In this document: piece after piece, positions 11,752-63,208 of the stretch
Layout: every line of letters starts with the position of its first letter
Numbering within the stretch: position 1 is the stretch's first letter
Assembly (NCBI GenBank): GCA_013177935.1
Contig: JABLXZ010000001.1
Location: 450,191-514,190, forward strand
Reading direction: 5' to 3'
DNA from: a candidate division WOR-3 bacterium
GTDB lineage: Bacteria > Hydrothermota > Tepidihabitantia > Tepidihabitantales > Tepidihabitantaceae
Length of the DNA stretch: 64,000 nucleotides
The notes under the pieces: model-generated
The model's database searches: none
What the model was told of the DNA's origin: nothing
What the model saw: the letters and a program-made list of their open reading frames with translations, nothing else
Translations under genes and position numbers: made by a program

Positions 11752-11779
11752 TTGACGGCAACCTGAAAAGTGCTATCTT
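11752..11779 (+). promoter_or_regulatory. Candidate leaderless promoter of the Xer gene
   Basis: TTGACG (11752-11757), 16-bp spacer, TATCTT (11774-11779), then 6 bp to the GTG at 11786. No Shine-Dalgarno sequence is present between. Confidence 0.5.
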
Positions 11780-14423: not shown

Positions 14424-15137
14424 CTAACCCTCCGAATTTTCGGGTTGGCGCAAATTAAGTTGATAATCGTCGTAACTGTCGTAGATTTCGATACGCCGGT
14501 GCATAATTTCAACTAAAAAATTGAGACGCAAATCCATCTTCAGCCTGAACTCCTTTGGCAACCAATATCCCTGAACCAGTCCGTAATCAATCACCATTTT
14601 GGCATCAGTAACAACAAATGGCAGGCGCGCCGGGACAAACTCTAACCGAACCACATCTCCTGAATTGAGCCTTACATAACCTATGCCCCTGATGTGATAA
14701 TCATCGGCACGCCGGGGAATAAATTTTACCAATGCGACACTTTCCCCTTGCCAAACTTTGGTACCGAGTACCTCATAACGATAACCGCCTCTTGTCTCAA
14801 GAAAAAAGGGCATCCTGGTCTGACGCGCTATCAGCCCCTTTTTCACTAAATTCTGACAGACCTGGGTTTTTTCTCGCCCGGAAACCACACGCCCATCAAC
14901 ACTTACTTGCAGAAAATCATACTCCTGCTCCTCGTAACGCTCCATCTTTACCCGACGCCGGCATTCTATCCTTTGCCGTTTACCACTGCGAAAATCATAC
15001 TCCTGATAAGTAAAGTCTGCATAGTACACCACACCCGCCAGTTCGCTTGCAATCTGACGCTGTCGAAGGAATATTCGATTGATGACCTCTTCTTTATTAA
15101 GAGCCCAGAATAAAATTAGCAGCCCAATAAGTATCAT
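14424..15137 (-). CDS. Exported hypothetical protein upstream of plsY
   Basis: The 237-residue protein has a short N-terminal hydrophobic segment (MILIGLLILFWALN), suggesting a signal anchor. The rest is rich in beta-strand-like stretches with many charged residues (for example CRRRVKMERYEEQEYDF, then GYWLPKEFRLKMDL). This general pattern, including the WLPKE turn near 195, recalls the open-barrel fold of LolA-type lipid-binding proteins, but I see no firm family motif. It is first in an operon with plsY and the GT2 gene, so a role in lipid handling is a guess. Confidence 0.55.
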   Translation of the reverse strand: MILIGLLILFWALNKEEVINRIFLRQRQIASELAGVVYYADFTYQEYDFRSGKRQRIECRRRVKMERYEEQEYDFLQVSVDGRVVSGREKTQVCQNLVKKGLIARQTRMPFFLETRGGYRYEVLGTKVWQGESVALVKFIPRRADDYHIRGIGYVRLNSGDVVRLEFVPARLPFVVTDAKMVIDYGLVQGYWLPKEFRLKMDLRLNFLVEIMHRRIEIYDSYDDYQLNLRQPENSEG

Positions 15138-15142
15138 AAGGC

Positions 15143-15170
15143 ATTATCTTTTTATCCTACCATCTGTCAA
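15143..15170 (-). promoter_or_regulatory. Candidate leaderless promoter of the hypothetical-plsY-GT2 operon
   Basis: Minus strand: TTGACA (15170-15165), 16-bp spacer, GATAAT (15148-15143), then 5 bp to ATG 15137. No Shine-Dalgarno sequence. Confidence 0.6.
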
Positions 15171-15181
15171 GGAGTTAAAAC

Positions 15182-15209
15182 TTGCTTGGTATCTTAATAA
15201 GGGTAAAAT
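15182..15209 (+). promoter_or_regulatory. Candidate leaderless promoter of the DUF523-uvsE operon
   Basis: TTGCTT (15182-15187), 16-bp spacer, TAAAAT (15204-15209), then 8 bp to ATG 15218. It is back-to-back with the operon promoter at 15143-15170. Confidence 0.45.
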
Positions 15210-22308: not shown

Positions 22309-22336
22309 TTGACTGTTTTATTTTTACCGCTACTAT
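22309..22336 (+). promoter_or_regulatory. Candidate leaderless promoter of the MFS gene
   Basis: TTGACT (22309-22314), 16-bp spacer, TACTAT (22331-22336), then 6 bp to the GTG at 22343. No Shine-Dalgarno sequence. Confidence 0.5.
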
Positions 22337-22342
22337 CCAGTA

Positions 22343-23626
22343 GTGTCCAACCGATTTGCCCTAATCCTTCGCAACAAAAATTTTCTTTTTTTAACCTTCG
22401 CCGGAGCCATGTCGCAGTTAGGCGACCGCCTTTCCCATATGCTACTAATCACGCTCATCGGCCTCACAACACCAGGAAAACTGCTCGCTTATTCGGGTGG
22501 CTCCCTCACATTCGTCTTACCGACCTTAATTCTCTCGCCCATTGCCGGGGTCCTGGTTGACCACTGGGACAAACGCAAAACCATTAGCCGAACCCACTTC
22601 CTCCAGACCGCACTACTGCTCTTAACCCCGTTTGCCATAAGACTTACCCACAGTTTTACCCCCTTCTGGATTGCATTAACCTTATTCTTTGGCCTTGACA
22701 TCTTCAACAACACCGCCAATCCCGCGCTCTTGCCCAATCTGGTCTCGTCTGATAAACTACTCCTTGCCAATTCGGTAAACCTTGCTTTTGCCCGCATCGC
22801 CACCGTTCTCGGAATGGTGATTGGTGGATTTCTGATTAAATGGGTGGGCTGGACCAACGGAATATTTATCGATGCCTCCTGTCATCTCATTGCCGGAATT
22901 TTAATCCTAAACATCATCAGCCCACCACATGCGGAAACGCCATCCTATCGTTCCACTACAACCAAACCCGGTATCCTTGTACTCACACTTAATGCCCTGA
23001 AACAGTTCATTAGCGACCTGGTTGAACTCATCCGCCTGGTTTTGCACAATCGCATTGTCGCCTTTGTCCTCGCCTCCATCGTCATCTCTACTTTTATTTC
23101 TGCAGTCTCTTACACAATCCTCATCTACATTGTGCAACAGGTTTTGCATATGGGAACAAGCGGGGTTGGCATCTTCGCCGGAATATTGGCAGTTGGGATG
23201 ATTGCCGGAGCCGCGGCGATGGGTCTCCTACCCCAAAATATAAATCGACCTTTAATTATCGTCCTGATTACATTCTTATATGGCTTGCTTTTTTTTATCG
23301 GCAACTGGCTTATCACGGTCTGGTTTATGATTATCGTTGCACTCATTGCTGGCATCGCATTTTCCTGGTTAGGGATTGTTCAGAGTACAATGTTACAGGA
23401 AGAAGTTGAACCAGCGATTCGAGGCCGGGTGTTCTCCACTCGCGAATTTGTCGCCAATTGCACTTTTCTTATCACCACACTTACTATTGGCATTCTCGGT
23501 GATTTCACATCTTACCGCACCGCTATTCTCGTAATCGGCATCGCCTTAATTGTTCTGGGAGGCGCTGGCTTCCTCTGGGTCCGGCACGGCCTGCGCCCAG
23601 GCCGCAGATTAAACCCGGACAATTAG
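22343..23626 (+). CDS. MFS transporter (MFS_3/EntS-like)
   Basis: The 427-residue inner-membrane protein has about twelve helices. The N-terminal [22 protein letters not shown] and the cytoplasmic loop VDHWDKRKT (the motif-A position, DxxxRRx) fit the MFS_3 subgroup, whose members export siderophores, macrolides or lysophospholipids. Substrate cannot be assigned. The tail overlaps panC by 18 bp convergently. GTG start is set by a promoter 6 bp upstream. Confidence 0.8.
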
Positions 23627-26417: not shown

Positions 26418-26452
26418 TAAAATAAGAGTAGAACAATCTCGTAAACTGTCAA

Positions 26453-26811: not shown

Positions 26812-26839
26812 TTGACATCTTGTTGCTTCCTTCTATAAT
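26812..26839 (+). promoter_or_regulatory. Consensus leaderless promoter of nnr
   Basis: TTGACA (26812-26817), 16-bp spacer, TATAAT (26834-26839): both hexamers match consensus. The ATG at 26848 follows after 8 bp (TTAACATC), leaving no room for a Shine-Dalgarno sequence. Confidence 0.75.
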
Positions 26840-26847
26840 TTAACATC

Positions 26848-28392
26848 ATGATTCCACTTGTCTCCGGTTCCGTAATGAAGGCAATTGACCAGAAGGCGAT
26901 TGAAATCTGGGGAATAAGTGGATTGGTGTTAATGGAGAATGCGGGGCGGGCGGTTGTCGACTCAATTGAAGAAGAAGTCGGCAGCGTGGAAGGAAAAAGG
27001 TTTGTCATTGTCTGCGGTAAAGGTAATAATGGGGGCGATGGTTTTGTCATTACCCGCCATCTGCTAAATCGGGGGGCAAAAGTTGATTGCCTCCTGTTAG
27101 GGGAACTTTCACAATTAAAGGGAGATGCACGAACTAACGCCGTAATCCTGCAAAATGCCGGCATAACAATCCGGGAAACAACCAAACTCGATGAAATCTC
27201 ACCAATCATCAGCACCGCCCCTTTTATCGTCGACGCCATATTTGGAACCGGACTCTCTGCACCACCGACCGGCATCTTCGCCCAAACAATTCAACTCATC
27301 AATCAAAGCTCGGCTTATGTGATAAGTGTTGACCTTCCTTCCGGACTCGATGCCGACACCGGAAAGGTTTTCGAGCCCACGGTTAAAGCCCACCTTACGA
27401 TAACGATGGGCATACCGAAGTACGGCTTAATTCTTTACCCTGGAAAAAGTTTTGCCGGAAAGTTACGCATCGCTGATATTGGAATACCGAAATCGCTAAT
27501 TGAACAACAGGCAGATACCTTTTTAGTAACAGAATCGGACATTCGACAAATCCTCCCGCGCCGGCGCCCTGATGGCCACAAAGGAACATTTGGGACCTGT
27601 TTGGTGATTGCCGGTGCCCGAGGTTACTCGGGTGCTGCCTGCCTTACCGCAATGGCGGCGATACGCGCTGGTGCCGGATTGGTCCGTGTTGCCTTCCCTC
27701 AAAGCCTTGCCCCGATAATAGAAGCCCGGGTTATTGAACCGGTGAAACACCCGCTTCCGGAAACCACCGACGCAACGCTGAGCCTGGATGCCGCTTCCCC
27801 GATTCTTGACCTCGCCGCTGATGCTACCAGCATCGCTATCGGTCCAGGAATTTCTACCCATCAGGAAACAAAAAAGTTAATCCGAGAAATTCTACCCCGG
27901 CTCAGCAAACCGATGGTCATTGACGCTGATGCCATTAACAACCTCGTCGATGCCGAAGAAACCCTCAAGCAGTGCTCAGCGCCGCTTATTCTAACGCCTC
28001 ATCCCGGTGAACTCAGCCGATTAATCGGGGTCGCCCCAAATGAAATCAACAACCGACGCATAGAAATCGCCCGGGAAACCGCTCGCAATTTCAATTGTGT
28101 ATTAGTTCTCAAAGGTGCTCCAACCGTTATCGCAACACCTCAGGGTAAAGTATTTGTCAACACCACTGGAAACTCCGGTTTGGGTTCTGGCGGTACGGGT
28201 GATGTTCTTACCGGATTGATTGCTGGATTACTGGCGCAGGGTGCTTCACCCCTTGACGCTTCTCTTATCGGTGTTTTTTTGCATGGCAAAACCGCAGATA
28301 TCGCCGCCCAGGAGCTTACCGAATACTGCCTTATCGCCGGTGACCTTTTGCAATTTCTCCCCCGTGCCTTTGCCGAACTTGTTGTGGATTGA
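26848..28392 (+). CDS. nnr: Bifunctional NAD(P)H-hydrate epimerase / ADP-dependent dehydratase
   Basis: A 514-residue fused repair enzyme for damaged NAD(P)H. The N-terminal YjeF domain (1-215) has VCGKGNNGGDGFVITRHL and VDLPSGLDADTG. The C-terminal ribokinase-like domain (~225-510) has GHKGTFGTCLVIAGA, PLILTPHPGELSRL and GNSGLGSGGTGDVLTGLIAG (split over 430-450). Full length and all key motifs are intact. It is the clearest leaderless gene in the window. Confidence 0.95.
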   Translation: MIPLVSGSVMKAIDQKAIEIWGISGLVLMENAGRAVVDSIEEEVGSVEGKRFVIVCGKGNNGGDGFVITRHLLNRGAKVDCLLLGELSQLKGDARTNAVILQNAGITIRETTKLDEISPIISTAPFIVDAIFGTGLSAPPTGIFAQTIQLINQSSAYVISVDLPSGLDADTGKVFEPTVKAHLTITMGIPKYGLILYPGKSFAGKLRIADIGIPKSLIEQQADTFLVTESDIRQILPRRRPDGHKGTFGTCLVIAGARGYSGAACLTAMAAIRAGAGLVRVAFPQSLAPIIEARVIEPVKHPLPETTDATLSLDAASPILDLAADATSIAIGPGISTHQETKKLIREILPRLSKPMVIDADAINNLVDAEETLKQCSAPLILTPHPGELSRLIGVAPNEINNRRIEIARETARNFNCVLVLKGAPTVIATPQGKVFVNTTGNSGLGSGGTGDVLTGLIAGLLAQGASPLDASLIGVFLHGKTADIAAQELTEYCLIAGDLLQFLPRAFAELVVD

Positions 28393-30509: not shown

Positions 30510-32941
30510 TCCTCAACCAGGGCGACATCAACAACCGCATCACCCTTTTCCACCGCCATCACCTTTACCCCGGTTGTTGCCCGACCGCACTTCCGGATTT
30601 CAGAACACTTCACCCGGATTACAATCCCCTGTTTTGAAGTAACAATTATTTCTGATGTTTCGCTCACCGCCTTGGCACAGGCAAGACGGCCGGATTTTTC
30701 CACTGGCTTAGCAGCAATAACACCTTTACCCCCACGCTTCTGAGTTGGAAACAGTTCGAAATCAGTGCGCTTACCAAACCCGTTATCAAATATTGTTAAC
30801 AGCGAACTGCCCGGTGCACAAACCACCGCTCCAATCACCTCATCACCCTTTCCCAATTTAATTCCCCGAACCCCAGCCGCACTCCTGCCCATCTCCCTAA
30901 CATCAGTTTCCTTGAACTTTATGCCCATACCATTTCTTGTCACCAGTAGAATCTCGTCCTTGCCCGAGGTCAAAAGAGTCGCAATCAACGCATCGTTATT
31001 GTCGACCGTCATCGCAATAATACCCTTGCGCCGCGGATTGGAAAATGCCTCGAGGCTTGTCCGCTTAACAATCCCCTGGCGGGTGACAAAGAAAACATAC
31101 TTATCAGCCGAGAACTCTCGCACCGCCACATAGGAAGTTGTCACCTCGTCCTTCTCCATTTCCACTAAATTGGCGATGGAACGCCCTTTTGAGGCATAAG
31201 AACCCTCAGGAATCTCATACACCTTCTGCCAGTAACACCTGCCCCGGTCGGTAAAGAACATCATATAATCATGGGTGGATGCAATGAACAACCCTTCGAC
31301 AAAATCCTCTTCTGCCACCGGAACCCCGGTTCGTCCCTGGCCCCCACGCCCCTGACGACGGTAAACACTCACCGGCATCCGTTTGATGTAACCACGATGC
31401 GTCACCGTCACCGCCATATCCTCTTCCTTGATCAAATCCTCTATCGAAACTTCGGCCGGTTTTTCAGCAAGAATTTCGGTGCGCCGTTCATCTCCGAACT
31501 TCTGTTTCAACTCAAGTAACTCCTGCCGGATTTCACCCATCATCAACTTCTTCGAACTTAAAAGACTCTTTAACCGGGCAATCTCTTTAATCAACTCCTT
31601 ATACTCGGCGTCAATTTTCTCCCTTTCCAGTCCAGTAAGCCGCGATAGCCGCATCTCAAGAATCGCATCGGCCTGGCGTTGCGAAAGTTTGAACTTATCC
31701 ATCAAACCTTTCCGTGCCGTCTCCACATCCTTGGACCGCTTGATAAGTTCAATCACCGCGTCGATACTCTTTAAGGCAATCTTCAAACCCTCAAGGATAT
31801 GTGCCCGTTCCTCCGCCTTTGCCAGTTCAAATTTGGTTCTTCGGGTAACAACCTCCAACCGAAATTCAAGAAACTTCTCGAGAAGCCCCTTTAAATTCAA
31901 AACCTTGGGCTCACCGTTGACCAGTACTAAAAGAATCGCCCCAAAACTGGACTCGAGTGGCGTCCACTTGAACAGCTGATTCAACACTACCTCTTTCGGC
32001 GTCTCCTTCTTCAACTCGAGGACAATTCTCATCCCCTCGCGGTCGGACTCATCACGCAGGTCCGCAACCCCCTGAATCTTCTTCTCCCGCACCAGTTCGG
32101 CGATGCGTTCCACCAGCGCCGACTTATTCACCTGATAAGGAATTTCGGTAATCACGAGCCGGTCGCGGCCCGCCTTCACCTCTTCAAATATCACCTTACC
32201 CCGAACAATAAAACTGCCCCGTCCTGTTTCATAAGTTTGCTTTATCCCGTCCAGCCCAACAACCGTTCCACCGGTAGGAAAGTCTGGACCCTTAACCCAG
32301 CGCATCAATTCACTAATCGTGATATCGGGATTGTCAATCAAAGCAACCAGCCCATCGATTAACTCGGCTAGATTGTGCGGTGGGATACTTGTTGCCATTC
32401 CCACCGCAATCCCGGTAGCGCCATTGGCTAAAAGGTTAGGAAATGCTGCGGGTAGGACAACTGGCTCTTTTAACCTTTCGTCAAAATTGGGTTGGAAATC
32501 AACCGTATCCTTATCAAGGTCCCGGAGTAGTTCCATCGCCAGTGGTGCCAGCCGGGCTTCGGTATATCGATAGGCAGCAGCCGCATCACCATCAATCGAA
32601 CCAAAATTTCCCTGCCCCTGCACCAAGGGATAACGCAACGAAAAGTCCTGCGCCATCCGCACCAGAGCATCGTAAACCGCAGCATCGCCATGCGGGTGAT
32701 ACTTACCAAGGACATCACCCACCACCGCGGCGGACTTTCGGAACGGACGATTAGGAAACAACCCCATCTCCTGCATCGTCCACAAAATGCGGCGCTGTAC
32801 CGGTTTTAACCCATCCCTGACATCAGGCAGCGCCCGAGCAACAATAACCGACATTGCGTAATCCAGAAAGGATTTACGCACCTCATCTTCAATATATACC
32901 GGGATTACCGAATTGTCATTCACGCTTTGAAATATACTCAC
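30506..32941 (-). CDS. gyrA: DNA gyrase subunit A
   Basis: An 811-residue type IIA topoisomerase breakage-reunion subunit. The catalytic tyrosine is Y126 in AYRYTEARL. The quinolone region reads [15 protein letters not shown]: alanine (A87) stands where E. coli has S83, while the aspartate is kept (D91). The GyrA box reads QGRGGQG (~535), supporting gyrase rather than topoisomerase IV. The C-terminal beta-pinwheel runs from ~505 to 805. GTG start at 32941 with GGTGGA ahead. gyrB is not in the window. Confidence 0.92.
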
Positions 32942-33041
32942 TCCACCAACAAAGTCAAATATCTTACACCGTTCTGAATGCCGAATTCACCATCGAAATT
33001 AATAACCGGACCTTTTCCGATTGCCCTCGGAAACTCAGTTT

Positions 33042-33731
33042 TTAACGGAAGCGCGGAAATAACATCGCCACCCGCTGAAACTGGGCAAAATCAGACTTTA
33101 GTATCGGTGCTAACGCCTTTTCCTCATACCGCGCTTGAATGAAAATCAACGGCAGTCCCAAAACCGCTACCAGGAGCAACCCACCCCAGGAACTGAAAAT
33201 CAGGGCAATCCCGACAAGCTGGACTAAAGTACCCAGATATCGAGGGTGACGACAGATTTTCTGCCACCTGAGCTCTAAAAATTGTCGGGCAGAAAAAACG
33301 ACCTCACCGGTATTGGGCTTTATCTGGGCAATTTTAATCAATCCGAACAATGTTGCCAGTCTGATATACACACCCAGACCGAAAATCAAAAGCCCCAAAA
33401 CCCCGAAGATATAATGATTTATCGGAAACTGGGTCAGGCGCCACCAGATAAAATCGGCAACCACATAGCCAATATACGGATAAACGAAAAAGGCAAACAC
33501 GCCCCGCCATAACGGTGAAGGCTCAACCACTCCGGACTGGAAAAAAGGCGAGCCAAAGTAATACTCCACTGCCAGCCACAGTACAAAAAGGTAAGCAAAT
33601 ATTATCGGAACAACCATGCGGTCCGGTACCGCATCCGAAAAGAAGTTGGTAAAAAATACCAGAAAATACAGACTGACAAGCACCGACCAGATGAATCTGC
33701 CGCTTTTAAACTTTAAAACAAAACTGCTCAT
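33042..33731 (-). CDS. Isoprenylcysteine carboxylmethyltransferase-family membrane protein
   Basis: A 229-residue protein with about six membrane helices. The C-terminal KICRHPRYLGTLVQLVGIAL (~158-177) and the later QARYEEKAL are the SAM-binding signature (RHPxYxG ... E) of the ICMT/PEMT superfamily. Bacterial members methylate lipids or small molecules; the substrate here is unknown. It overlaps the upstream lipoprotein gene by ATGA. Confidence 0.75.
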   Translation of the reverse strand: MSSFVLKFKSGRFIWSVLVSLYFLVFFTNFFSDAVPDRMVVPIIFAYLFVLWLAVEYYFGSPFFQSGVVEPSPLWRGVFAFFVYPYIGYVVADFIWWRLTQFPINHYIFGVLGLLIFGLGVYIRLATLFGLIKIAQIKPNTGEVVFSARQFLELRWQKICRHPRYLGTLVQLVGIALIFSSWGGLLLVAVLGLPLIFIQARYEEKALAPILKSDFAQFQRVAMLFPRFR

Positions 33732-34939
33732 CTCTTACCCTGTGCCTGAAGGATGTCCGCGGCATACTCCCACAACTGCCGGGCAGAAAGTTGAAAATCC
33801 CTAACCGATAACGAACTGATTGTTTGCAGAACACCAATGGTTGTTGCCACCCGGTACCGCTTGCGTGCCATAATCCGCCTGCCGCGCAATCCAGTACGGC
33901 TTTCCATTACCAGTTTTCTGTCACTTTTCAGCAACCGATTTATCTCCTCACCTTCAAGTTCTATCAATGCCAGCCTTCCCGGCTCAGAAAGTGCCGATAG
34001 CAGCTTCATCCGGGTAATTGTTCCCGATAATATTGTGTCCCGGACAAAGCCAGTACTGTCGTAAATAAAAAGGTCGACCTCGCGCAACCCCAGATAACCA
34101 TTAACTATCGCCCGACTTAACACCCGGGGAGCAATCTTAACCCTTGTCTCAACAACCGGCAACGAGCCAATGGAATCCAGCACTATCCGCAACGAATCAA
34201 ACACCCGCGCGACTTTGGGTTCCAGTTCACCCGTATCAAAAGAAACGACCTCTTTTTTCACATTTTGAACCTTACCATTAACCAGAACAAAATCGTAGCG
34301 TAGCAACGCACCTTCCGGCGCGTTCAAAATTACATCGAAACCCGAAACCGCGCCGGAATCTGACATAAGAAGCGCGGTCAAATCGGATTTACTTTTTAGC
34401 AAGGTCAACAACTTCTGTCCAGAATAACCTGGGAGGGCAAATTTCACCCCTTTCAGGCGCAAGAGCACATCAGTTGAGTCAAGGAATAGCCCGCTGATTG
34501 CCAGATTTATCCCGGCAACTTTCTTTATCATCCAGGGATGGACCAGCGGCAAATCAAAACTGTCAACCAGATTGTATGCCAGCACCCGAAACCGCGCCCG
34601 GTCGGTTAACTGCTTTGCCCGTTCAACGCCGAACTTCAACCAGCCCGGTGTTAAAAGCAACCCATCAATCCCGGCAAGAGAAAGTAAATCAATATTCGCC
34701 TCGCCATCGGTCAACGGCGCAAACTTTTCGTCAAAAACTTCACCGGCAATAAACCATAAACAAGGACCTTCCTCTTTTGCCTGAGAAACCACACGGCTGA
34801 TAACCGGTAACTCTTCAATTTTGCAATCACCACTGACAAAGATGGAGAAGTTTTCTACCGTGACGGGTTTAGCCATTCGGGACGCACAACCCGCAAAGAC
34901 TAAAATTGCCCCGATGAGAGCAAAAGATAAAAATCGCAC
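33728..34939 (-). CDS. Lipoprotein related to 5'-nucleotidases, metal site lost
   Basis: The 403-residue protein starts at GTG 34939 with a lipoprotein signal (lipobox LVFAGC, Cys ~18). Residues ~62-125 follow the UshA-type metallophosphatase pattern: 'WFIAGEVFDEKFAPLTDGE', 'LLSLAGIDGLLLTPGWLKFG', 'FRVLAYNLVD' mirror 'DaGDvfqGt..tkGe', 'MNalGyDa.t.GNHEFdyG', 'fp.l.aNi'. The GNHE and GD metal ligands are absent. The C-terminal part (GTITRMKLLSALSEPGRLALIELEGEEINRLL, split over ~305-336) resembles the 5'-nucleotidase substrate domain. Likely a non-catalytic binding protein. Homology is by eye. Confidence 0.6.
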   Translation of the reverse strand: MRFLSFALIGAILVFAGCASRMAKPVTVENFSIFVSGDCKIEELPVISRVVSQAKEEGPCLWFIAGEVFDEKFAPLTDGEANIDLLSLAGIDGLLLTPGWLKFGVERAKQLTDRARFRVLAYNLVDSFDLPLVHPWMIKKVAGINLAISGLFLDSTDVLLRLKGVKFALPGYSGQKLLTLLKSKSDLTALLMSDSGAVSGFDVILNAPEGALLRYDFVLVNGKVQNVKKEVVSFDTGELEPKVARVFDSLRIVLDSIGSLPVVETRVKIAPRVLSRAIVNGYLGLREVDLFIYDSTGFVRDTILSGTITRMKLLSALSEPGRLALIELEGEEINRLLKSDRKLVMESRTGLRGRRIMARKRYRVATTIGVLQTISSLSVRDFQLSARQLWEYAADILQAQGKR

Positions 34940-34944
34940 AGCCG

Positions 34945-34972
34945 ATTATACCCTATCCCTATTTGGTGTCAA
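34945..34972 (-). promoter_or_regulatory. Consensus leaderless promoter of the lipoprotein gene
   Basis: Minus strand: TTGACA (34972-34967), 16-bp spacer, TATAAT (34950-34945), both perfect; the GTG start at 34939 follows after 5 bp. No ribosome-binding site can fit. Confidence 0.75.
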
Positions 34973-46960: not shown

Positions 46961-46988
46961 ATTGTAAGACTTTGTATCAACAGGTCAA
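46961..46988 (-). promoter_or_regulatory. Leaderless promoter of trmI-btuFCD
   Basis: Minus strand: TTGACC (46988-46983), 16-bp spacer, TACAAT (46966-46961), then 6 bp to ATG 46954; no Shine-Dalgarno sequence. Confidence 0.65.
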
Positions 46989-47032
46989 GTTAACCCGCAA
47001 ACTTTTCCAAACCATTGAACTGGGCTGTATCC

Positions 47033-47060
47033 TTGACTTTTCTACCATTGCGAATATCAT
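47033..47060 (+). promoter_or_regulatory. Leaderless promoter of the NHL-propeller operon
   Basis: TTGACT (47033-47038), 16-bp spacer, TATCAT (47055-47060). ATG 47065 lies 4 bp and GTG 47068 lies 7 bp beyond; the latter matches the spacing of the other leaderless genes better. Confidence 0.6.
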
Positions 47061-53966: not shown

Positions 53967-53994
53967 AACTTAACAAGTATTCGATTAATGTCAA
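53967..53994 (-). promoter_or_regulatory. Candidate leaderless promoter of the transglutaminase lipoprotein
   Basis: Minus strand: TTGACA (53994-53989), 16-bp spacer, weak TAAGTT (53972-53967), then 6 bp to ATG 53960. Confidence 0.45.
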
Positions 53995-54129: not shown

Positions 54130-55281
54130 TCACTGTTTAAAAACTGGAAAAGTTGCCAAGACTGGGCGGTGGTCTGAAATCAAACGCAGATAATCAACTA
54201 TCTCATCATCAAGTCGCACCGTAGATGTTCTGCCCCCAGCATATTCGGTCAGCGCATCACTCGTCACAAGGATATGGTCGAAAAGCACTCCGGAAGTAAC
54301 AAGCGACCCATAAAACTCATTTCCTGCTAAAGGCAGTGTCAAAAAACGGTAATCAATTGTATCGACAAGAAACGGCAGAAATACATTTTCTCCTTCCGGT
54401 TTAATCAGTTCATCATTCCAGTCACCCGCAACCACAAAATCCTGCTCCCCGCCCCGCGCCCGCTCATTGTCAACGTATTTCTTTAACAACCGACAGGCAC
54501 CGGCGCGTTTTGCCCGATCAGAAACAGTTGACCCGGCTTTAAGGTGCAACACAATCAGCCTGAAATCAAATGTTCCGCCGTTACTCGAGGCCCTAATCAT
54601 CATCTCCAGCGGCGGCCGGGGAAAAGAGTCGTTATTCCAGAAAATCTGATGTACTTCACTAACCTGAACTATTTCGCTTTTGTATATCACACCGGTCTTC
54701 TGGTAAAACGAACCATAATCATCACGCGAATAAAGTCCACAATAACGAGGCAAACCGTTTAGAAGTTGTATAAAGGCGGTCGTATCTTCAATCTCCTGGA
54801 TACAAAACAAATCAACATCCAGCCGGTCAATCAGCGTTTGCAGCAGCAACAGAGTCGAATCTCCTTTTTTGGGAAAATTTTGTATATTCCAGGTGACAAG
54901 CTCCAGCGTCGTATCGGTACCTAAAGATGGCACTGCTCCGGGAAATTCAATTTTGAAAGGTGCAAACGCCACAATTGAACGCGCTCCGGAATCGTCAATT
55001 GCCCGAAGAGAAAAAAGGTGATTGCCCCACGAGAGGTTGTAAAGTGTAACCCCATTTGATTCGGTGAATGTGTCGGGTGTTGAATCATTCAAACCATAAA
55101 AAAAGCCGATAATCCTGCCATCAACATCATTCCCCTGCCACTCGAATCGAGCAGAATCGGCATCGGTGATTATGCTGGGCTTTAGAGTAAACACTACTGT
55201 CGGCCCTTTATTACCCGTATCTAACGGTTTAATACAACTTAGAAAAATTATCAGTCCCAAGAACCACTTATTCATTTTCAT
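54130..55281 (-). CDS. Secreted endonuclease/exonuclease/phosphatase-family lipoprotein
   Basis: The 383-residue protein has a lipoprotein signal (LIIFLSC, Cys ~16), an Ig-like domain (~25-110) and an EEP domain (~120-380). The catalytic set is complete: WNIQNF, QEIED, LHLKAG, VAGDWNDE and ISDHRPV. It could be an extracellular nuclease or a phosphodiesterase. A promoter-like TGGACA-16-TAAGCT ends 6 bp before the ATG. The stop is one base from tRNA-Leu on the other strand. Confidence 0.85.
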   Translation of the reverse strand: MKMNKWFLGLIIFLSCIKPLDTGNKGPTVVFTLKPSIITDADSARFEWQGNDVDGRIIGFFYGLNDSTPDTFTESNGVTLYNLSWGNHLFSLRAIDDSGARSIVAFAPFKIEFPGAVPSLGTDTTLELVTWNIQNFPKKGDSTLLLLQTLIDRLDVDLFCIQEIEDTTAFIQLLNGLPRYCGLYSRDDYGSFYQKTGVIYKSEIVQVSEVHQIFWNNDSFPRPPLEMMIRASSNGGTFDFRLIVLHLKAGSTVSDRAKRAGACRLLKKYVDNERARGGEQDFVVAGDWNDELIKPEGENVFLPFLVDTIDYRFLTLPLAGNEFYGSLVTSGVLFDHILVTSDALTEYAGGRTSTVRLDDEIVDYLRLISDHRPVLATFPVFKQ

Positions 55282-61560: not shown

Positions 61561-62011
61561 TCAAAGCAAATGTCACATAATGCGGCGCCTTGGGCTTACG
61601 GCGTAACTTCATATTTGCCTGTGCCGGGGTACGGCTGCCTTTTCGGGCATTACATTGAGGACAGGCGCAAACCATATTTTCCCAGGAATCGGTACCGCCC
61701 AATGCTTTCGGAATCACATGGTCCGCAGTCATCACAGGTCCGCGTGCACCGCAGTACTGACAGGTGTTATTATCACGGCGCAAGATGTTTCGTTTCGTTA
61801 AAGGAACTTCCCGGCGTTTAACCCGCACATAATAGTTCAACCGCAAAACGCTCGGCAGGGGAAAACTCATATTAACCGTATGTAACTCGAGACCAGAAGT
61901 CTCAACCGGTTCCGCTTTTCTGGTCAGAACCAGAACCAGTGCCCTTCTTGTCCGGCAAACCGAAATCGGCTCGTAATTTTGATTCAAAAGCAAAACCGGA
62001 CGATTTAGCAT
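61508..62011 (-). CDS. HNH endonuclease-domain protein
   Basis: The 167-residue protein's N-terminus (LLLNQNYEPISVCRTRRALVLVL) is the usual start of the widespread HNH protein family. The HNH core includes CQYCG, TADHVIPKALGG, WENMVCACPQCNARKG: two CxxC zinc pairs around the DH catalytic site. Role unknown; restriction or DNA repair are guesses. It overlaps the BamA-like gene. Confidence 0.85.
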   Translation of the reverse strand: MLNRPVLLLNQNYEPISVCRTRRALVLVLTRKAEPVETSGLELHTVNMSFPLPSVLRLNYYVRVKRREVPLTKRNILRRDNNTCQYCGARGPVMTADHVIPKALGGTDSWENMVCACPQCNARKGSRTPAQANMKLRRKPKAPHYVTFALNALGDIPEDWRQYLFIS

Positions 62012-62026
62012 CTCATCTTTTAAAAC

Positions 62027-63208
62027 CTACCGGACAAACAACTCTTTGTCAATAGAATTGATACTCTTGTCGATATAGTCAATCTGCGCCCGGGCGTAAC
62101 TGGCTAAAGTTGAGTCGTTAAGTGCCTTCTGGTAATAGCCCCGTGCTTCTTCGTATAACGCTTTAGCCGCACGCAGATTGGCGGTTGATGTCTGAGCAAG
62201 ATTGGTGCCTCGCTTCACATCCGCCTGTTTGCGACGATTGTCTCCCAGGTCAACATATGCCTGCAATAAATTCGGGTCCAGTGCCAGCGCCCGTCGCAGA
62301 TTAGCATCGGAAGCCCCATAATTACCCTGCTCACTCAACGCCTCTCCCTTGTAGAGATAGGCAACCGCAAGCGTCGAATCACTGGCAATCACCTCATCAA
62401 ACTTCTTTATCGCCTCCTTCATCTTGCCCTGACGCGCAAGAATTACCCCCTGCCGCAACTTCGCCTGATAATTCGTGGGTTCAATTGTCAAAATCGTGTC
62501 AATCTGTGCCAGCGCCCCTTTATAATCCTTCAACTCAACCATCGCATCAACCAGTTTCGCGCGCAAACTTGTTACCTGAGGAAACCGCGCTGCCAGCGGT
62601 TTCAAAGCCTCCACCGCCTCGCGATACCGTCCAACTTTATAGAGAAACTCGCCCCAGAGCCGTTGCACCGCCAGATCATCAGGAAAACGCTTCAATGCGA
62701 TTCGATAAACTGAATCGGCTTGGGACATCATCCCTTTACGCACATAAATATCGGCAACACCATTGTACAAATCGGCAAGACTTGAATCCTGTGCCAGCCC
62801 TTCTTGATAAACCCCCAGCGCATCATCGACCCTGCCCATTTCCAGATACATATCACCCAGCGCCTCATAAGCCTTTGCCTTCTTAGGGTCAATTTTCATC
62901 GCCTTGCGATAGTACTCCTCTGCCTGACCCGCATCCCGTTTTTTACGCCAGATATTACCAATCGCAATGTACGGGTCGTAATAAAGCGAATCGTACGCCA
63001 GTGCCTGCTCAAAATTCTTGAGCGCCGATTCAAAATCACCCTGTTGATAATAACCAGCGCCGATACTGTAACTTTGTTGTGCCGAATCGCGCCGCGCCTG
63101 CAACTGCTCCCCGGAAAATTTTGTAACTGTCTGCGTTGGGGTACATCCAGTGCTAAATACACCGCCGATAAAAATCGCCACAATTACAAAAAACAAGACC
63201 CTTTTCAT
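62027..63208 (-). CDS. TPR-repeat lipoprotein
   Basis: The 393-residue protein has a lipobox (FSTGC, Cys ~22) and about eight to nine consecutive TPR units (for example YYQQGDFESALKNFEQAL, KAYEALGDMYLEMGRVDDAL, LADLYNGVADIYVRKG), ending in a charged helix. TPR lipoproteins usually scaffold envelope assembly. AAAGGAG precedes the ATG. It is 49 bp downstream of tRNA-Ala on the same strand. Confidence 0.85.
   Translation of the reverse strand: MKRVLFFVIVAIFIGGVFSTGCTPTQTVTKFSGEQLQARRDSAQQSYSIGAGYYQQGDFESALKNFEQALAYDSLYYDPYIAIGNIWRKKRDAGQAEEYYRKAMKIDPKKAKAYEALGDMYLEMGRVDDALGVYQEGLAQDSSLADLYNGVADIYVRKGMMSQADSVYRIALKRFPDDLAVQRLWGEFLYKVGRYREAVEALKPLAARFPQVTSLRAKLVDAMVELKDYKGALAQIDTILTIEPTNYQAKLRQGVILARQGKMKEAIKKFDEVIASDSTLAVAYLYKGEALSEQGNYGASDANLRRALALDPNLLQAYVDLGDNRRKQADVKRGTNLAQTSTANLRAAKALYEEARGYYQKALNDSTLASYARAQIDYIDKSINSIDKELFVR

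Follow-up and report, generated by a model that had tools for sequence, protein, structure and literature searches.

The gene nnr of a candidate division WOR-3 bacterium lies at positions 26848–28392 (plus strand) of the 64-kb stretch of DNA analysed here, referred to as the window, and encodes a bifunctional NAD(P)H-hydrate epimerase/dehydratase with YjeF_N (PF03853) and Carb_kinase (PF01256) domains. It is preceded by a -35 box TTGACA (26812–26817) and, after a 16-bp spacer, by a -10 box TATAAT (26834–26839), and the ATG follows 8 bp downstream. This arrangement raises the question of where the nnr mRNA begins and how it would be translated. In sigma-70 promoters six nucleotides lie between the -10 hexamer and +1; hence, a gap of 6 bp between the box and a start codon would be expected to place +1 on the first base of that codon. 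On the basis of the placement and conservation of its promoter, the nnr mRNA is predicted to be leaderless or near-leaderless.

Promoter boxes beside start codons in the window

All nine sites named in the original prediction, including nnr, were found again, and at each of them a TTGAC(N) -35 box is followed after 16 bp by a -10-like hexamer, which ends 4–8 bp before an ATG or GTG codon. Scanning of positions -16 to -3 of these nine sites and of folK for GGAG, GAGG and AGGA revealed no Shine-Dalgarno (SD) sequence. On the plus strand, TTGACT-16-TAAATT (874–901) lies 7 bp before ATG 909 of a class IV aminotransferase gene ('dat'; PF01063), TTGACG-16-TATCTT (11752–11779) 6 bp before GTG 11786 of a Xer-type recombinase gene (PF00589/PF02899), TTGACT-16-TACTAT (22309–22336) 6 bp before GTG 22343 of an MFS transporter gene (PF07690), and TTGACT-16-TATCAT (47033–47060) 7 bp before GTG 47068 of a gene for an NHL-repeat protein (PF01436). 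On the minus strand, TTGACA-16-GATAAT (15143–15170) is separated by 5 bp from ATG 15137 of a hypothetical protein gene, and TTGACA-16-TATAAT (34945–34972) by 5 bp from GTG 34939 of a gene for a putative lipoprotein (33728–34939) that matched no family in a Pfam search. The corresponding gap is 6 bp for both TTGACC-16-TACAAT (46961–46988), upstream of ATG 46954 of a trmI-like tRNA methyltransferase gene (PF08704), and TTGACA-16-TAAGTT (53967–53994), upstream of ATG 53960 of a gene for a transglutaminase-like protein (PF01841). These eight sites and nnr were all compared with the sister species, and trmI and nnr were also followed across the family.

The -10 box had been described as TANNNT at all nine sites, which holds except at 15137, where it is GATAAT. 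The two cases said to have perfect TTGACA and TATAAT boxes are indeed nnr (26812–26839) and the putative lipoprotein gene at 34939. For the NHL-repeat gene both 47065 and 47068 had been proposed as starts; the sister species carries ATA at the position of ATG 47065, and hence GTG 47068 is the start. The cases listed as weaker proved to be of unequal quality. The site of folK (the name given in the original prediction), TTGACA-16-TACTCT (26425–26452, minus strand) 7 bp before GTG 26417, was recovered by the pattern scan as well as the sister-species comparison and is a strong one. Upstream of ATG 15218 (plus strand), the -10 box TAAAAT (15204–15209; gap 8 bp) and the start are conserved in the sister species but the -35 box is not, and the EEP start at 55281 (minus strand) is not conserved. 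Two further cases were absent from the earlier list. A clear one, detected by the pattern scan, is TTGACT-16-TATATT (32931–32958, minus strand), 7 bp before GTG 32923 of a gene for an 805-aa protein that shares 97% identity with its counterpart in the sister species. The other, with a short leader, is the gene beginning MLNRPVLLLNQNYEP (62011–62052, minus strand), in which TTGACA...TAGGTT is separated from the ATG by 12 bp, is kept in the sister species and is accompanied by no SD sequence; a leader of ~6 nt is predicted for it, placing it between the leaderless and leadered types. It was also observed that trmI (minus strand) and the NHL-repeat gene (plus strand) form a divergent pair, with two leaderless-type promoters inside ~110 bp (46961–47060).

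As TANNNT is short and the upstream regions are AT-rich, matches of this kind might arise by chance, or the boxes might not be promoters. However, the pattern TTGACN{16,18}TANNNTN{4,8}RTG has 13 matches in the window, compared with 0.68 ± 0.83 (maximum 3) in 100 dinucleotide-preserving shuffles.

Operon-first genes across the genome

The window and 40 stretches of 20 kb were combined into a sample of 864 kb, representing 44% of the 1.96-Mb genome (5 contigs). Genes were called by a purpose-written, simple dicodon finder that assigned starts from coding potential and start-codon type and ignored the upstream sequence. With starts called in this blind manner, TANNNT peaked 6 bp before the start codon in the 286 operon-first genes, 35 of which have the hexamer exactly there (background ~6.6 per position), and TTGAC peaked 28–32 bp upstream. 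An accumulation of -10 boxes between -12 and -7 of operon-first genes had been named in advance as the observation that would support the proposal. Neither peak was seen in the 303 operon-internal genes, and the peak survived when first genes were restricted to those with a single plausible start (n = 101).

The -10 box by itself is a weak signal, and the two-box motif is far cleaner. A two-box promoter at 4–9 bp was found in 63 of the 286 first genes (22%), compared with 10.7 in distant bins of equal width, and in 5 of the 303 operon-internal genes (Fisher p ~3e-16). The identical pipeline applied to E. coli K-12 found such a promoter in none of 73 first genes. A Deinococcota positive control (100 kb of two plasmids), too small and GC-rich to be informative, gave a weak -10 excess (TANNNT 4 versus 1.6) and no two-box excess. 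A count made without gene calls gave the same picture: RTG placed exactly 6 bp past TTGACN16-17TANNNT opens an ORF of ≥100 aa in 30 of 33 cases (91%), and RTG 13–40 bp past a two-box site does so in 33%. When promoters were located using cross-trained matrices, a recognisable one was present within 125 bp of 168 first genes, 66 (39%) of which have it at 4–9 bp.

An SD sequence is absent from all 70 first genes in which a two-box promoter lies close to the start, as compared with its presence in 98 of the 216 other first genes, though part of this absence is unavoidable, since the -10 box covers the very bases that an SD sequence would occupy. Of the first genes, about 118 belong to neither group, partly owing to start-calling errors. 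TTG starts were found in 3 of 70 leaderless-type and 11 of 98 SD genes, a difference too weak to use. The division proposed earlier, with leaderless first genes and SD-dependent downstream genes, therefore stands for the internal genes, which use SD sequences and show no promoter peak, but not for all first genes, as ~34% of these also have an SD sequence.

Among 58 promoters, spacers of 16 bp (34) and 17 bp (17) predominate. The recurring 16-bp spacer emphasised in the original prediction is thus real at these sites but not specific to them, since a 16-bp spacer was also observed in 27 of 46 leadered promoters of the sample. The sigma-70 promoters of this organism seem to prefer 16 bp and not the textbook 17 bp.

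Conservation of promoters and starts

Orthologs of 24 leaderless-type first genes were identified in the sister species (G001), a second species of the genus. In 23 of the 24 the two-box promoter is kept at nearly the same distance, with substitutions in 7% of box positions and 28% of positions in the spacer and discriminator. The -35 box and start of nnr are among the conserved elements. All 24 start codons are identical, five GTG among them. Substitution rates in codons 2–9 are 0.19, 0.14 and 0.38 at the first, second and third positions, respectively, and the upstream phases are flat at 0.31–0.39; conservation of the coding type thus sets in at the start codon.

These data bear on the possibility that the starts are misassigned and that translation truly begins further down the reading frame, at a codon preceded by an SD sequence of its own, in which case the mRNAs would be normally leadered. 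A promoter beside an annotated ORF is a known sign of misannotation in Deinococcus (PMC12340547), and for two genes of the window the coding-based start fell downstream of the proposed one, namely at 22409 for the MFS transporter gene and at 34876 for the minus-strand gene at 34939. However, the sister species retains both GTG 22343 and GTG 34939, and the frequency of an in-frame SD sequence with a start codon within codons 3–41 is no higher among leaderless-type genes (6/63) than among SD genes (14/98) and among internal genes (39/303). The identity of the start codons, the third-position bias already present in codons 2–9 and the lack of a surplus of downstream SD starts indicate that translation very probably begins at the codon adjoining the promoter, and general misassignment is considered very improbable.

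At greater distance, most members of the family and order (50–90% protein identity) have TTGAC...TATAAT or TTGAC...TAGAAT beside the ATG of nnr and trmI, with a fully diverged spacer. In the nnr genes of a few relatives the gap is 11–13 bp and there is still no SD sequence, which suggests that leaders of up to ~7 nt are tolerated. Given these gaps, and those of 8–9 bp in some genes, leader length is predicted to within a few nucleotides, and individual genes may have a short leader.

The lineage was settled by an RpoB tree, in which the genome and its class group with candidate division WOR-3 isolate Zod_Metabat.887, nested inside the class; placement from nnr matches alone was abandoned, as the best match was 46% and phyla were mixed. 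One of the nnr relatives, 38% identical to that of the window, lies on a contig labelled 'Thermoprotei archaeon' (L063) amid bacterial-looking matches, and this contig is perhaps mis-binned.

Stretches of eight further WOR-3 genomes with GC contents of 31–62% all showed an excess of near promoters in first genes (7–48%), and the excess holds in the relative with 62% GC (G003). The near-promoter peak was absent from the examined loci of other phyla. Whole genomes were compared by counting the pattern with a near gap, N{5,8}, and with a shifted gap, N{25,28}. The near and far counts were 1698 and 461 for 12 genomes of the same class (median ratio 3.7, lowest 2.6), 2394 and 1335 for 48 genomes of other classes of the phylum (median 1.65), and 295 and 241 for 19 genomes of other phyla, most of these phyla being without an excess. 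Among the other classes, a 2.4–3.4-fold excess was observed in families f9, f15 and f28 (these three >3), f10, f19, f20 and f24, which suggests that leaderless promoters exist outside the class; families f12, f17, f23 and f26 showed none. Considering box conservation alongside spacer drift, persistence of the excess at 62% GC and the control comparisons with internal genes, E. coli and other phyla, chance as the source of the pattern is refuted at genome scale, and the view that the boxes are accidental or not promoters hardly deserves consideration.

Initiation mode and comparison with known systems

RpoD (L292) has regions 2.4 and 4.2 that look canonical by eye and scores 343.9 bits against TIGR02393, slightly below the cut-off of 354. 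The 16S rRNA ends in CCTCCTTT with an intact CCUCC anti-SD sequence, and IF3 is encoded in the genome; thus, the genome is also capable of conventional initiation. There is no sign of a special polymerase or ribosome; the peculiarity lies in the placement of the promoters.

A leader could nevertheless be present if the polymerase started unusually far from the -10 box or if a second promoter lay further upstream. A single gene may have several promoters, and the transcription starts considered here are predicted from sequence. However, the spacing mode is exactly 6 nt, as for sigma-70, and RpoD is of canonical appearance in the relevant regions. Moreover, no SD sequence precedes these starts, whereas leadered genes in this genome have a more distant promoter and an SD sequence beside the start codon. 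A leader of either origin therefore seems a slim prospect, on a par with misassigned starts.

The best explanation, to which a probability of about 0.9 is assigned, is that these operon-first mRNAs are leaderless or near-leaderless and arise from sigma-70 promoters set against the start codons. Ordinary promoters of this type (TTGACN, 16–17 bp, TANNNT) would direct the polymerase to initiate at the start codon itself or a few nucleotides upstream, and from this placement it follows that the mRNAs would either lack a leader or carry one of a few nucleotides. The actual transcription start is thus expected at or near the start codon. A large minority of operon-first mRNAs would be of this kind, at least ~20% overall and ~39% where the promoter is recognisable. 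They would be translated without an SD sequence, the 5'-terminal AUG or GUG presumably being recognised by the 70S ribosome or by an IF2-assisted 30S subunit, a loading route proposed by analogy. The internal genes and the remaining first genes would use conventional SD sequences pairing with the intact CCUCC. The many leaderless mRNAs of the original prediction are in this way strongly supported as a sequence-based prediction, with the qualification that first genes use at least one further mode.

For the WOR-3 class as a whole, the spacing held at nnr and trmI across families favours, with some reserve, leaderless initiation from complete -35/-10 promoters as a standing, ancestral mode of operon-first genes. 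It would perhaps be patchy in the other classes of the phylum, and WOR-3 ribosomes would in that case be inherently efficient at initiating on 5'-terminal start codons in addition to using SD sequences.

A literature search for leaderless initiation together with WOR-3 found no paper, in agreement with the earlier remark that this mode was not known to be described for the lineage, though published domain-wide motif scans might include such genomes unnamed. The mechanism is known from other bacteria and is apparently undescribed in WOR-3. With this finding an uncultured bacterial class joins the wide users of leaderless mRNA, on comparative evidence that is independent of annotation. Gene finders that expect SD sequences will misplace starts in WOR-3 genomes; the promoter boxes offer a means of correcting them. 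Since nnr and trmI can be traced across dozens of genera, WOR-3 can also serve to test the persistence of leaderless initiation at single genes and switching between leaderless and SD modes.

The sites share the features of sigma-70 promoters, i.e. TTGACA/TATAAT boxes, 16–18 bp spacing and a canonical-looking RpoD. They likewise show those of TA-led genes in the sense of Zheng et al. 2011: a peaked TANNNT ~10 bp upstream, no SD sequence, location in first genes and retention in relatives. As cited in PMC9581028, predictions by GeneMarkS-2 attribute leaderless transcription to 21.6% of bacterial representatives; this class is similarly computational, with a promoter motif near the starts of part of the genes. 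Mycobacterium tuberculosis and other Actinobacteria also have a TA-like signal ~10 bp upstream, ATG and GTG starts and leaderless genes together with SD genes (PMC3898074, PMC3160421), but they belong to an unrelated lineage, and the starts were mapped experimentally there and are predicted here.

The closest parallel is Deinococcus-Thermus, where TANNNT lies a few base pairs before the start, no SD sequence is present, and a large leaderless share is mixed with SD genes (PMC12340547, PMC3160421). Experiments on this -10-adjacent mode in Deinococcus were carried out by Zhong et al. 2025, who also scanned common phyla (PMC12340547). The share appears lower in the present genome, ~20% or more of operon-first genes as compared with ~30% of ORFs in Deinococcota (PMC12340547, PMC3160421). 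In Deinococcus the signal is the -10 box, and an added -35 region boosts expression (PMC12340547), whereas in nearly every case described here a strong TTGAC -35 box is present as well, at 16–17 bp. A further difference from Deinococcus is that the arrangement is conserved class-wide, in an uncultured lineage.
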